From Sinomicrobium weinanense (lineage in GTDB: Bacteria > Bacteroidota > Bacteroidia > Flavobacteriales > Flavobacteriaceae): a stretch of 64,000 bases of DNA. A model generated the notes under the pieces. The model was not told the origin of the DNA. It ran no database searches and saw nothing but the letters and a program-made list of their open reading frames with translations. Location of the stretch: contig NZ_JAHKRR010000005.1 of NCBI RefSeq assembly GCF_018863395.1, positions 124,001-188,000 on the forward strand. Direction: 5' to 3'. Both the position numbers and the translations under genes were made by a program. This document shows positions 50,601 to 54,994 of the stretch, in pieces; positions within the stretch are counted from its first letter, which is position 1, and each line of letters starts with the position of its first letter.

Positions 50601-51134
50601 ATGAAAAAGCAACTTGCCATGCCCCTATCGTTCAAACGATGTACTAAAGAAGACATAGACGTCTTGCTGGACATTTCCAGGGAGACTTTTACGGATACCT
50701 ATGCCACTCAGAACAACCCGGAAGATTTTAAGGCGTATATGGAAGAGTTTTTTGCCCGGGACCGTCTTATACAGGAGCTCGGCAGCGAAGCTATTCTTTT
50801 CTATCTCGCCTATGCCAATGGCAAACCGGCAGGATACTTTAAACTGAACCGGGCAGGTGCACAGACCGATATCAACGAACCGGGGTCCCTGGAACTGGAA
50901 CGCATCTATCTGCTAAAGACATACCAGGGCCGGGAACTGGGGAGGGATTTGATACAAAAAGCCATTGAGATCTGCAGGGATCAGAAAGCTTCCTACCTGT
51001 GGCTCGGGGTCTGGGACCAGAATGCCAGGGCAATAAGGTTTTACGAAAAGAACGGATTTGTAAAATTCGGGGAACATCCGTTCTTCATAGGCAGGGACAA
51101 ACAGAACGACTGGCTGATGAAAATAGATTTTTAA
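50601..51134 (+). CDS. GNAT-family N-acetyltransferase
   Basis: This 177-residue protein has the GNAT core: LERIYLLKTYQGRELGRDLI (acetyl-CoA pyrophosphate-binding motif A; variant of Q/RxxGxG/A) and YLWLGVWDQNARAIRFYEKN, followed by GFVKFGEHPFFIG. The start at 50601 is uncertain; MPLSFKRCTKEDID at 50619 is a better family match and fits the promoter at 50565-50597. The substrate may be a small amine, polyamine or protein; it cannot be told by eye. The LOG-family gene follows after 45 bases. Confidence 0.92.
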   Translation: MKKQLAMPLSFKRCTKEDIDVLLDISRETFTDTYATQNNPEDFKAYMEEFFARDRLIQELGSEAILFYLAYANGKPAGYFKLNRAGAQTDINEPGSLELERIYLLKTYQGRELGRDLIQKAIEICRDQKASYLWLGVWDQNARAIRFYEKNGFVKFGEHPFFIGRDKQNDWLMKIDF

Positions 51135-51179: not shown

Positions 51180-51761
51180 ATGAAAAGAATTACGGTTTAC
51201 TGCGGTTCCAATGAAGGAAACGACCCGGTTTACAAAGCCCAGGCCCATCTGCTCGGAAAAATTCTGGCACAACGCAATATCGAACTCGTTTACGGCGGCG
51301 CCCGTGTAGGCCTCATGGGTGCCATTGCCGAGGGCACCCTGGAAGAAGGTGGAAGGGCTACGGGTGTACTTCCCCGTTTTCTCCGGGACAAGGAGATCGC
51401 CCACGAACGGCTCACCGAACTGGAACTGGTCGATACCATGGCCGAACGAAAAGCCAGAATAGAAGAAATGGCCGATGGCATCATAGCCCTTCCCGGCGGA
51501 TACGGAACAATGGACGAGCTCTTCGAGGCCCTGACCAACGCACAACTGCAACTGCATCAAAAACCAATAGGCCTGCTCAACACAGCAGGTTTCTACGACG
51601 GATTGGTACAACTGCTGGAAACCATGACAGCCAGGGGATTGCTCAAAGAAGTGAACAGAAATATGCTCCTGGTCAGCGATAATATAGACGAACTGCTGGA
51701 CCAAATGTTTAGCTATACCCCTGCTACGGTGAACAAATGGATCGAGGAAGAAACAAATTAA
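51180..51761 (+). CDS. LOG-family nucleoside 5'-monophosphate phosphoribohydrolase
   Basis: This 193-residue protein belongs to the Lonely Guy family. Evidence includes VYCGSNEGNDPVY, the nucleotide site VYGGARVGLMGAIA and the diagnostic PGGYGTMDELFE with its catalytic Glu, preceded by MAERKARIEEMADG. Members release bases from (cytokinin) nucleoside monophosphates. In bacteria the physiological substrate is often simply AMP-like nucleotides. It is followed by the VOC gene after 18 bases. Confidence 0.95.
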   Translation: MKRITVYCGSNEGNDPVYKAQAHLLGKILAQRNIELVYGGARVGLMGAIAEGTLEEGGRATGVLPRFLRDKEIAHERLTELELVDTMAERKARIEEMADGIIALPGGYGTMDELFEALTNAQLQLHQKPIGLLNTAGFYDGLVQLLETMTARGLLKEVNRNMLLVSDNIDELLDQMFSYTPATVNKWIEEETN

Positions 51762-51779
51762 CCAGCCAATCCCATACTC

Positions 51780-52169
51780 GTGCTTCGTCTAAACAAGATA
51801 CACCATATTGCCCTTATATGCTCGGATTATAAAAAATCCAAAGCGTTTTACACCGAGCTCCTGGGTTTTACCATCCTGAAAGAAACCTACCGGACGGAAA
51901 GGGATTCCTACAAACTGGACCTGGCCCTTAACGGCACATACACCCTTGAGCTCTTTTCCTTCCCCGACCCGCCCCCGCGCGTTTCCGGGCCGGAAGCAGC
52001 CGGGCTACGGCATCTCGCCTTTGAAACGGATGACCTGGAAATGGCAGTCGCCACGCTCCGGGAAAAGGGTGTCCGCACAGAAGATATCCGGACAGACGGG
52101 ATCACAGGAAAAAGATTTGTTTTCTTCCGGGACCCGGATGACCTCCCTCTAGAATTATACGAAAACTAA
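51780..52169 (+). CDS. VOC-family protein (YaeR/GloA2-like)
   Basis: This 129-residue protein starts at GTG (51780), giving MLRLNKIHHIALICSDYKKS, the normal family opening. Glyoxalase-fold metal positions are plausible: His in KIHHIAL, Glu in YTLELFSF, His in LRHLAFET and Glu in LPLELYEN. It probably binds a divalent metal. The reaction is unknown; annotation as a glyoxalase would be a guess. It ends 180 bases before the graspetide precursor. Confidence 0.9.
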   Translation: MLRLNKIHHIALICSDYKKSKAFYTELLGFTILKETYRTERDSYKLDLALNGTYTLELFSFPDPPPRVSGPEAAGLRHLAFETDDLEMAVATLREKGVRTEDIRTDGITGKRFVFFRDPDDLPLELYEN

Positions 52170-52349: not shown

Positions 52350-52595
52350 ATGAAAAAAGAAAGCCAAGGCTTGAAAAAGCCATTTTTCGCAAACTTCCTG
52401 GAACATCAGGTATCCGAGGAAAAAAAAGAAACCGTACAGGGTGGAACTACCCTTAAGTTTCCTTCTGACCAGGAAGATGATGGCGGAGGTGTTATCTCTG
52501 CTACGGTTACCTCACCTGTTCTCGACCAGGACAAAGGAGGTGATGTAACCCAGAAGTTCCCTTCCGATGATGATGAGGAAGGAGACATCATGTAG
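52350..52595 (+). CDS. Microviridin/chryseoviridin-like graspetide precursor with two cores
   Basis: This 81-residue peptide begins MKKESQGLKK and carries the leader helix PFFANFL (residues 11-17), equivalent to the PFFARFL recognition motif of microviridin leaders. Two core repeats follow: TLKFPSDQEDD (34-44) and TQKFPSDDDEE (67-77). Each matches TxK(Y/F)PSDx(E/D)(E/D). By analogy with microviridin, core 1 should form esters Thr34-Asp40 and Ser39-Glu42 and an amide Lys36-Asp43. Core 2 should form Thr67-Asp73, Ser72-Asp75 and Lys69-Glu76. A Gly-Gly pair lies just before each core (31-32, 63-64) and may mark leader and spacer cleavage. A terminator follows. Two ATP-grasp genes lie downstream. 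Confidence 0.9.
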   Translation: MKKESQGLKKPFFANFLEHQVSEEKKETVQGGTTLKFPSDQEDDGGGVISATVTSPVLDQDKGGDVTQKFPSDDDEEGDIM

Positions 52596-52621
52596 TAAAA
52601 AATTTCATCTGTGTGATGCAA

Positions 52622-52650
52622 CAATAGCCTTCCGGGGCTATTGTTTTTTT
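52622..52650 (+). terminator. Terminator/attenuator after the graspetide precursor
   Basis: A perfect eight-base stem CAATAGCC/GGCTATTG (52622-52629 with 52636-52643), loop TTCCGG and seven T residues. It should reduce read-through into the ligase genes and raise the precursor-to-enzyme ratio. Confidence 0.85.
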
Positions 52651-52654
52651 AGAC

Positions 52655-52725
52655 ATAAGACAACAGGGCTATGGCGCAGGACTTTAATTTTCGTTGATCT
52701 TAAGTCTTATGTCCTGTTGTCTTAT
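52655..52725. repeat. Inverted repeat between precursor and first ligase gene
   Basis: ATAAGACAACAGG (52655-52667) pairs perfectly with CCTGTTGTCTTAT (52713-52725) across a 45-base loop. TCTTATGTCCTGTTG overlaps the second arm as a partial direct repeat. Its function is unknown; it may be an interspersed repeat or a second mRNA structure. Confidence 0.7.
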
Positions 52726-52764
52726 ATCATTACAAAATTATCATAACACCCCAATCTAACCAGG

Positions 52765-53742
52765 ATGATATTATGCCTTACCCACAGCACTGACCACTAT
52801 ACCGTAGATATTGTCCGGGAAAGGTGCAAAACGTTGGGAAAAGAAATGTTCCGGATGAACACAGACCTCTTTTCCCATCAATCGCGTTTTGATTATACCT
52901 GTAACAATGAAGGAACGCACTTCTGCTGGTCCGACGGTAAAACAACTTTTTCTACAAAAGACGTCGAAGCCGTATGGTACAGAAAACTCTGGGCCATGCC
53001 CCCTCCTCCTGACCTCGACCCCGGCTATCTTAAAATATTTATACAGGAATACGGAACAATGCGAAACATTTTTTTCGAATCGCTCCGGCATCTTCCCTGG
53101 ATGAACCCCATGGCCACCGACCACGAAATAAACAAAAACAAGCTAGATCAGTTACAAATCACTTCTGCCCATGGATTGCATATCCCCAAAAGCCTGTTTA
53201 CCAATAATCCCGAAAAGGCAAAATCTTTCTTTCATAAAGAGTGCAGGGGAAACATGATCGCCAAACTACACGGTTCGCTTTCCCGAAGCATGAAGGGAGA
53301 CGCTCCCTTCTTCCCTACTACGGTCATCAGAAAGGACGACCTGGAACAACTGGACACCCTTCCCTTATGCCCTATGATCTTCCAGGAGCTGATCCCTAAG
53401 GCCTACGAACTGAGGATCATCTATGTGGACGGCACTTTTTTTACCGGGAAGATCGATGCCAGCACTTCAGTACGAGGTAAAACGGACTGGAGGATCGCCA
53501 CTGACGCTGACTTTGGCTGGGAACCCTATGAACTCCCGCCGGATATCCGCGAATCCCTGACCCGGGCCATGCGGCAGATGGGGCTCTTTTTCGGAGCACT
53601 GGACATGATACGCCACAAAGACGGGCGTTACATCTTCCTTGAGGTCAATCCGCAGGGAGAATGGGGTATGCTGCAACGCGACATCGGGTACCCCATAGGA
53701 GAGACCATCGCAGAAAAACTGATTGCACGGATACAGACATAA
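52765..53742 (+). CDS. ATP-grasp graspetide ligase (MvdC/MvdD family), first copy
   Basis: This 325-residue ligase activates core Asp/Glu side-chain carboxylates with ATP and joins them to Thr/Ser (ester) or Lys (amide). The N-terminal pre-ATP-grasp domain opens MILCLTHSTDHYTVDIV and contains the family-typical VEAVWYRK. The ATP-grasp core has NMIAKLHGS, the hinge MIFQELIPKAYELRII and the metal-binding FLEVNPQGEWGML. Leader recognition of PFFANFL is expected in the central helices. Sequence reading alone does not decide whether this is the ester- or the amide-forming enzyme. It lies 169 bases after the precursor. Confidence 0.93.
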   Translation: MILCLTHSTDHYTVDIVRERCKTLGKEMFRMNTDLFSHQSRFDYTCNNEGTHFCWSDGKTTFSTKDVEAVWYRKLWAMPPPPDLDPGYLKIFIQEYGTMRNIFFESLRHLPWMNPMATDHEINKNKLDQLQITSAHGLHIPKSLFTNNPEKAKSFFHKECRGNMIAKLHGSLSRSMKGDAPFFPTTVIRKDDLEQLDTLPLCPMIFQELIPKAYELRIIYVDGTFFTGKIDASTSVRGKTDWRIATDADFGWEPYELPPDIRESLTRAMRQMGLFFGALDMIRHKDGRYIFLEVNPQGEWGMLQRDIGYPIGETIAEKLIARIQT

Positions 53743-53745
53743 AAA

Positions 53746-53777
53746 ATTCAAGGTTCAAAGTTCAAGGTTCAAAGTTT
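53746..53777 (+). repeat. Direct repeat AAGGTTCAAAGTTC between ligase genes
   Basis: TTCAAGGTTCAAAG occurs twice in tandem (about 53748-53761 and 53762-53775). Similar strings form the ends of the four-helix-bundle cassette at 30486-30936. It lies in the 82-base gap between the two ATP-grasp genes. Confidence 0.65.
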
Positions 53778-53824
53778 TACCCGGTCCCTGAGCAAAGCCA
53801 AAGGGCAAACTATAACAACTACTT

Positions 53825-54847
53825 ATGCAAAAAATACTGATCATCACGCATTCTAAAGACAATGCATCTATAGACACGGTCTCCGGTTTCCTCAGAGAAT
53901 CAGGAGCGCAGGTCATCCGTTTTAATGTAGATGAATACCCCTTGCAATGCAGCCTGAGCAGCCGGTTCGAAAACGGAACATGGCAAATCTTCCTGGACCG
54001 TGACGGACAACGCCACAGTCTTCACGATATTACAGCAGTGTGGTATCGAAGAAGCCACAACCTCGCTTATGGCCTGAACCAGATCCTGGAAGGCACTTAT
54101 CTTTCCAGCGCCCAAAAGGAGATACGCCGAACACTTTTCGGGATGCTCGAAAGCATGCCCTGTTTCCAGATAGACACCTTCAGCAAATACCGCAGGCTCG
54201 ACAGCAAGGAAGAACAGATGAAGATAGCTTCTGCCCTCGGCCTGAACATTCCGGACACCTGTATAACCAACAACCCGGATGAGGCCCGTGATTTTGTGTT
54301 ATCACATCCCGGCGGAGCCATCGTAAAAATGCAGAGCTCCTTTGCCATATACCGGGACGGCAAGGAGCATGTGGTATTTACCAATATAGTCTCCGAAAAG
54401 GACCTGGAAGCTGTGGACGCCCTGCAATACTGCCCTATGCAATTCCAGGAAAAGCTGGAAAAATCCAAAGAACTCCGGGTGACTATCGTAGGAGATGCCG
54501 TATTTACCTATGCCATAGATTCCCAGAAAATGGAGAATGCAAAAATAGACTGGCGGCGGGAAGGAAACACCCTGCTCGACCAGTGGGAACCCTACCAATT
54601 ACCACACGAGATCGAAGAAAAGTTACTGCAAATCATGGACATTTACCAGATCAACTACGGGGCCATAGACATTATTGTCACCCCGGAAGAAGGCTATTAT
54701 TTCCTGGAGATCAATGCAGCCGGAGAATATTTGTGGCTGGACCATCTTGCGGATGGAGCTATTTCAAAACAGATCGCCAGGGTATTGACCGGAGAAGCCT
54801 ACCGGAGGTATACTCCTGTATTGCAAAAGGACAGACAACCGGGATAA
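53825..54847 (+). CDS. ATP-grasp graspetide ligase (MvdC/MvdD family), second copy
   Basis: This 340-residue ligase is parallel in layout to its neighbour but clearly diverged. Visible landmarks are ILIITHSKDNASIDTV, ITAVWYRRSHNL, ASALGLNIPDTCITNNP, GGAIVKMQSSF, MQFQEKLEKSKELRV and the metal motif YFLEINAAGEYLWLD. Microviridin-type clusters need two such enzymes, one for the two omega-esters and one for the omega-amide. The pair plus precursor here is therefore a minimal set. The next gene is convergent, so the cluster ends here. Confidence 0.93.
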   Translation: MQKILIITHSKDNASIDTVSGFLRESGAQVIRFNVDEYPLQCSLSSRFENGTWQIFLDRDGQRHSLHDITAVWYRRSHNLAYGLNQILEGTYLSSAQKEIRRTLFGMLESMPCFQIDTFSKYRRLDSKEEQMKIASALGLNIPDTCITNNPDEARDFVLSHPGGAIVKMQSSFAIYRDGKEHVVFTNIVSEKDLEAVDALQYCPMQFQEKLEKSKELRVTIVGDAVFTYAIDSQKMENAKIDWRREGNTLLDQWEPYQLPHEIEEKLLQIMDIYQINYGAIDIIVTPEEGYYFLEINAAGEYLWLDHLADGAISKQIARVLTGEAYRRYTPVLQKDRQPG

Positions 54848-54857
54848 TAAAATTAGA

Positions 54858-54969
54858 AAGAGGTCTGAAAAGCCTGCACACTTATCATTCTGAACTGTCA
54901 TCCTGAGCATAGTCGAAGGGCTCAGGATGACAGTTCAGGGTGACGTAAAGGCTACTTTTCAGACCTCTT
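54858..54969. mobile_element. Nested inverted-repeat element after the graspetide cluster
   Basis: The outer arms AAGAGGTCTGAAAAG (54858-54872) and CTTTTCAGACCTCTT (54955-54969) are perfect. The inner arms TGAACTGTCATCCTGAGC (54891-54908) and GCTCAGGATGACAGTTCA (54920-54937) are perfect as well. It lies between convergent genes, has no coding capacity, and may double as a bidirectional terminator. The ends resemble those at 12386 and 43011. Confidence 0.65.
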
Positions 54970-54994
54970 CCTATCTATAATTTATCAGAGATTT

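Follow-up and report, generated by a model that had tools for sequence, protein, structure and literature searches.

A probable three-gene graspetide cassette in Sinomicrobium weinanense, with a two-core precursor and a predicted single-ring module between the cores

In a 64,000-nucleotide stretch of the Sinomicrobium weinanense genome (contig NZ_JAHKRR010000005.1; the whole stretch is called the window here), a small gene with two similar core motifs is followed by two genes for ATP-grasp ligases. This locus raises the question of what it makes: does it belong to a known kind of graspetide cassette, how many rings would its product carry, and would that product be released as one peptide or as two? 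Its three open reading frames (ORFs) are all intact and lie on one strand:

52350..52595, + strand: graspetide precursor of 81 amino acids (aa), with a leader and two microviridin-type cores (ORF; NF033738 and Inhibitor_I10 over cut-off)
52765..53742, + strand: ligase 1, an MdnB/MvdC-type ATP-grasp ligase of 325 aa, predicted omega-amide former (models, solved relatives)
53825..54847, + strand: ligase 2, an MdnC/MvdD/CdnC-type ATP-grasp ligase of 340 aa, predicted omega-ester former (models, solved relatives, tree)

The precursor matches the NCBIfam model NF033738 (microvirid_RiPP; E = 2.1e-15, 57.2 bits against a cut-off of 26) and the Pfam model Inhibitor_I10 (37.9 bits against a cut-off of 21). 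The best model of ligase 1 is TIGR04185, MvdC (E = 7.5e-113), ligase 2 matches TIGR04184, MvdD (E = 1.1e-126), and both carry the MvdD pre-ATP-grasp domain over its cut-off. These precursor and ligase matches are far above chance, and the three genes are very probably a microviridin/chryseoviridin graspetide cassette with two-ligase chemistry, the bonds being predicted from sequence. The first-pass annotation of this DNA had described a precursor with PFFANFL and two TxKFPSD cores followed by two ATP-grasp genes, each of which lies where it had been placed; its assignment of the locus to a microviridin/chryseoviridin-like family is borne out by the NCBIfam and Pfam matches and by the closest solved ligases.

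Compared with three sibling Sinomicrobium copies, the precursor has nonsynonymous divergence (dN) of 0.10-0.23 and synonymous divergence (dS) of 0.85-1.48; because dN is well below dS, we conclude that the cassette genes are under purifying selection, which argues for a working product. For the ligases, dN against the siblings is 0.08-0.22 at saturated dS (~1.5 and above, one not computable). On sequence grounds, the gene content, motifs, ligase relationships, conservation and purifying selection are established. The locus is real, intact and conserved; this kind of cluster is already well known, and this member of it is new. Within the precursor, we located the following elements:

52380..52403, + strand: leader motif PFFANFLE, residues 11-18 (sequence motif)
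52434..52445, + strand: VQGG, residues 29-32, putative double-glycine leader cleavage site (motif, and analogy with C39/GG cleavage in an excerpt of PMC13039773)
52449..52478, + strand: core 1, TLKFPSDQED (motif; predicted T34-D40 and S39-E42 esters and K36-D43, or D44, amide)
52509..52526, + strand: TSPVLD, residues 54-59, predicted extra single omega-ester ring T54-D59 (motif analogy)
52548..52577, + strand: core 2, TQKFPSDDDE (motif; predicted T67-D73 and S72-D75 esters and K69-E76, or E77, amide)

The precursor thus has the features of microviridin/chryseoviridin graspetides, a PFFxxFLE leader motif and the TxKxPSDx(E/D)(E/D) core, the latter twice. The predicted linkages of core 1 are modelled on the microviridin A pattern, as given in an excerpt of PMC7823629.

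A scan of genome contigs with patterns of ligase 1 gave 131 relatives, the best 80 of which were kept as named loci, so that the sample leans to close Bacteroidota relatives. Together with the window locus and the G397 locus they make 82 loci, and in every one of the 82 one or more precursors combine the leader motif with a [KR]xPSD core, giving 174 precursors and 201 cores. The Arg of the PFFARFL motif is replaced in 173 of the 174 collected precursors, and in this one likewise. The residue after Lys (position 7) is Tyr in 181 cores, Phe in 18 (in 12 of the 82 loci) and Ala in 2, and Asp is followed by Trp in 2 of the 201 cores and by a non-aromatic residue in the others. The first-pass annotation had considered Phe in place of Tyr and the lack of an aromatic residue after Asp to be novel; given these counts, both traits are ordinary in Bacteroidota, and Phe after Lys was ruled out as a distinctive trait. 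Precursors with at least two cores under a stricter pattern number 24, namely 4 from Sinomicrobium, 12 from Flavobacterium and 8 from Taibaiella, and the alternation of full cores with single-ring modules occurs in precursors of all three genera. The Taibaiella loci L026 and L027 (4.7-5.9 kb) carry four multi-core precursors in a row, with cores that include the unusual KAPSD and SKK(Y/F)PSDWED.

The closest solved relatives of ligase 1 are AMdnB (40.7% identity, E = 2.5e-75) and MdnB (37.5%), and those of ligase 2 are CdnC (53.3% identity, E = 4.1e-119) and MdnC (41.1%). We take chains 5ig8 and 5ig9 to be MdnB and MdnC, and likewise assume AMdnB and MdnB to be omega-amide enzymes and CdnC and MdnC to be omega-ester enzymes. 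The four solved ligases share 66 invariant columns, of which 57 are conserved in ligase 1 and 64 in ligase 2, and 31 columns are invariant across all 68 aligned rows, both window ligases included. Of the 25 columns by which the two reference types can be told apart, 10 are amide-like and 4 ester-like in ligase 1, and 2 are amide-like and 16 ester-like in ligase 2. In a tree of 71 rows, built from the ligase pairs of 32 loci out of the 82 (this one among them) together with four references and three outgroups, the group formed by ligase 2 and its orthologues also contains MdnC and CdnC (100/99) and lacks ligase 1, MdnB and AMdnB; CdnC falls inside the Chryseobacterium branch of the ligase 2 group.

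From these features we infer a bond pattern, an extra ring, cleavage after GG and a protease target, as follows. Both ligases would recognise the PFFANFLE leader. Ligase 2, being of the CdnC type, would form two omega-esters in each KFPSD core, ligase 1, of the MdnB type, would close one Lys-Asp/Glu amide per core, and ligase 2 would probably add a single Thr-Asp ester in TSPVLD, for a total of seven linkages. A protease encoded elsewhere would then cut the leader after VQGG to release a 49-aa peptide, whose predicted monoisotopic mass with seven rings is 5029.27 Da. Its two caged heads would probably inhibit serine proteases of different preference, since position 5 is Leu in core 1 and Gln in core 2 (Leu in 59 and Gln in 22 of the 201 cores of the sample). 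In microviridin L, according to an excerpt of PMC7823629, the change of Phe5 to Leu improved elastase inhibition and that to Arg improved trypsin inhibition; because position 5 shifts the preference of microviridins and the two cores differ there, two protease preferences would be expected by analogy. As a whole, we propose only tentatively one 49-residue product, an inhibitor with two heads and seven crosslinks, the heads being joined by a chryseoviridin-type single ring. If true, such a product would merge the topology of two known sub-types in one molecule. At the level of the family, the cassette leaves present knowledge unchanged and places Sinomicrobium within the microviridin/chryseoviridin family, with exact and testable ring predictions.

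The seventh ring depends on the module between the cores. Chryseoviridins have the conserved motif TxxxxDxxxTxKxPSDxD[DE], with three linkages, as described in an excerpt of PMC8939145. The corresponding T-x4-D module upstream of the last core is present here as T54SPVLD59, between the cores. Every one of the 24 multi-core precursors has a [TS]x4D motif in a linker (in 2000 shuffles the mean was 5.3 and the maximum 12), and in 20 of them the motif stands exactly three residues ahead of a core (shuffle mean 0.6, maximum 4), counts that represent non-independent trials, as the compared loci are related. In the four Sinomicrobium copies the module reads TSPVLD, SKPVLD, TKPVLD and TKPVLD, with a hydroxyl residue, P, V, L and D kept, and the stretch ahead of it varies among the four species. 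CdnC is said, in the title of a 2021 study by Zhao et al., to install single and bicyclic omega-esters. Since a T-x4-D module lies between the cores and ligase 2 is closest to CdnC, we predict by analogy seven rings rather than six, with a water loss of 126.07 Da and one extra Thr-Asp ester; we rate this ring as having a somewhat better than even chance, and no higher, because the spacer between the module and core 2 is unusual. The first-pass annotation had counted two tricyclic cores and a loss of 108 Da, a count that omits the module kept in 24 of 24 multi-core precursors.

Several observations weigh against the proposed product. Besides the relatedness of the compared loci, the chryseoviridin spacing of three residues from module to core is not found in Sinomicrobium, where all four precursors have seven (QD(K/G)GGDV or NDGGGDV; QDKGGDV here), and therefore the module may stay uncyclised. 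Six linkages only, with TSPVLD left open because the widened spacer breaks the CdnC-type template, is a serious alternative whose chances fall a little short of even. The same spacing in 4/4 copies speaks for it, and CdnC reportedly, in the study of Zhao et al., needs the residues that flank a ring; four species nevertheless keep the Thr or Ser donor and the Pro, Val, Leu and Asp of the module next to a variable preceding stretch, which weighs against this alternative. In either case, the widened spacer is a naturally occurring probe of the surroundings that a CdnC-type ligase requires for a ring.

Other points concern the ring-forming residues and the enzymes. Core 1 has D43 where microviridin A has the amide-taking Glu, and Glu is found there in the three siblings. 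Both ligases score below their NCBIfam equivalog cut-offs (ligase 1, 376.8 against 425; ligase 2, 422.4 against 475). Relatives fall below the same cut-offs, with the aligned stretch of CdnC at 470.7 against 475 and the three other Bacteroidota MvdC-type ligases scanned at 404.2, 380.7 and 380.0 against 425; because the relatives share the shortfall, it was ruled out as a sign of another family. As rooted, the tree joins MdnB and AMdnB to the ester group (99/95) rather than to ligase 1 and its Bacteroidota relatives, a placement that could be a false join, as the outgroup branches are very long and the root is unsure. The first-pass annotation had tied its family call to ligases inside the MvdC/MvdD group; ligase 2 falls inside it, and ligase 1, with outgroup branches of this length, may or may not share one clade with MdnB.

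The remaining points concern release. Neither a protease nor an exporter was found among the five flanking proteins scanned, and both C39 transporters found in the host genome (5.36 Mb) lie on other contigs, beside other peptide genes. C39 cleavage after GG has been described for a graspetide transporter, and GG-bearing precursors are often, not always, accompanied by a C39 transporter (excerpt of PMC13039773). In tblastn searches with two C39 domains, in which C39 only was sought, none was found in the window or in three sibling regions. Among the 80 named loci, C39 was found in 5, all from Chryseobacterium and just downstream of the ester ligase, and not in the other 75, a negative that says less for the four named loci shorter than 12 kb. 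Since the locus has no C39 and the genomic pair is on other contigs, cleavage and export would probably occur in trans. Each of the two genomic C39 transporters was considered as an in-trans exporter; both are near other peptide genes, and neither was assigned. One, an ABC transporter (L112:5180-10390, G000:C25), lies downstream of a run of seven small peptides with GG leaders, the majority of which have hydrophobic tails rich in glycine; together they look like a bacteriocin-like cluster. The other (L111:882-8448, G000:C29) has in its neighbourhood a Cys-rich GG peptide of 67 aa and a gene judged LanC-like by eye, possibly a lanthipeptide cluster.

Release could also involve extra cuts inside the linker, at GGG after core 1 and GGD before core 2, which would yield two microviridin-like peptides in place of one. 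GG pairs stand just before core 2 in 4/4 Sinomicrobium copies, and class II and III precursors bear double-glycine motifs (excerpt of PMC13039773). The linker glycines are, however, outside a VQGG-like leader context, no protease was identified, and the linkers of 10 of the 12 multi-core precursors from Flavobacterium lack GG, so that a cut between cores is not general in that genus; we regard this mode of release as rather unlikely. A degenerate or silent cluster without product, to which the lack of any protease or exporter in the five scanned flanking proteins and the absence of the cassette from 2/6 genus genomes searched would point, is very improbable in view of the intact reading frames, a precursor dN well below dS against three siblings, the invariant ligase columns kept and the same position in four species.

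Related bacteria carry close relatives of this cassette, which makes it an ordinary new member of its family. Among 397 genomes of the family, drawn evenly over 237 genera and including three of this genus, the precursor family is found in two, the host genome and one sibling. A ligase 1 orthologue (E < 1e-150) is present in four of six Sinomicrobium genomes, and the other two have no match. In the four carriers the cassette is at the same place, with flanking genes in common. The two non-carriers keep the flanks (prenyl synthase, outer-membrane protein and TPR protein); in the 14-kb stretches compared, the LOG gene, the VOC gene, the precursor and the ligases are all missing, and their place is taken by a 468-aa gene. 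The genes upstream of the precursor in the window are:

50601-51134: GNAT gene, upstream (ordinary family)
51180-52169: LOG-family gene and VOC (YaeR-type) gene, directly upstream (ordinary families)

The LOG and VOC genes accompany the cassette in 4/4 Sinomicrobium carriers and are missing from the same stretch in the two non-carriers; the block they form with the cassette may have come or gone together. In the 78 non-Sinomicrobium named loci, GNAT and LOG had no tblastn match and VOC had two short partial matches only, near the far ends of L059 and L065. Because none of the flanking genes (GNAT, LOG, VOC, outer-membrane and TPR) was fully matched in these loci, we take the cassette itself to consist of three genes. 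The GNAT gene was also considered as a counterpart of MdnD and rejected, as it belongs to an ordinary family and is unmatched in those 78 loci; among the three sibling regions, two gave a match to it and that of S. oceani did not. Elsewhere, the host genome carries a grasp-with-spasm ATP-grasp gene (L003, G000:C10:7629-8555; TIGR04192, 272.3 bits against a cut-off of 230).

Between the precursor and ligase 1 lies one further element:

52620..52650, + strand: 11-pair hairpin with a T-run, probable attenuating terminator (folding)

Folding covered three of the four carrier species. Here the hairpin has a minimum free energy of -18.8 kcal/mol (z -2.7), a stability reached by 3 of 200 shuffles; the stem of S. 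pectinilyticum is almost identical (z -4.7), and a different stem occupies the same place in S. oceani (z -5.8). With such a hairpin, the cell would probably make more of the precursor than of the ligases. A second inverted repeat follows it directly (52652-52728; 16-nt arms, 94% complementary, 45-nt spacer). Just past ligase 2, nested inverted repeats (54854-54973; arms 54885-54908/54920-54943 and 54854-54872/54955-54973) look like an intergenic repeat or a bidirectional terminator. Upstream of the precursor, inspection by eye for a promoter gave nothing useful.

Among known systems, microviridins A, B and J (MdnA/MdnB/MdnC) share with this locus the TxKxPSDx(E/D)(E/D) core and ligases of MdnB and MdnC type, but are single-core. 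According to excerpts of PMC7823629, microviridin B reads TTLKYPSD where core 1 has TTLKFPSD, and microviridins A and B contain Tyr and Trp. The microviridin pathway has further enzymes, the acetyltransferase MdnD and the transporter MdnE (excerpt of PMC5934393). The multi-core microviridins of Anabaena (AMdnA/AMdnC; same excerpt) likewise have several cores per precursor and two ligases; AMdnA carries three cores, whereas the Sinomicrobium precursor carries two, with the T-x4-D module between them. Within the genus, a microviridin-like cluster has been called in Sinomicrobium oceani PAP.21, with a BiG-SCAPE link to microviridin J at a similarity index of 0.058 (excerpt of PMC10112250). The locus of the S. 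oceani type strain is orthologous to this one; for PAP.21 the excerpt gives a cluster call and no account of the cores. Among the matches listed from the open-licence literature, there was no description of a Sinomicrobium graspetide product and no match to the KFPSD motif, which is weak evidence of absence because only open-licence papers were covered.

The closest likeness is to chryseoviridin of Chryseobacterium gregarium (CdnA/CdnB/CdnC). The leader has the PFFAxFLE motif and GG site of the Chryseobacterium precursors compared, the T-x4-D module likewise stands ahead of a KxPSD core, ligase 2 is 53% identical to CdnC, and the gene order is the same: precursor, MvdC-type ligase, MvdD-type ligase. 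The two systems differ in that chryseoviridin has several precursors, in which single-ring modules precede one full core, whereas Sinomicrobium has one precursor with two full cores, and in that chryseoviridin has Tyr and a 3-residue spacer where Sinomicrobium has Phe and a 7-residue spacer before the last core.

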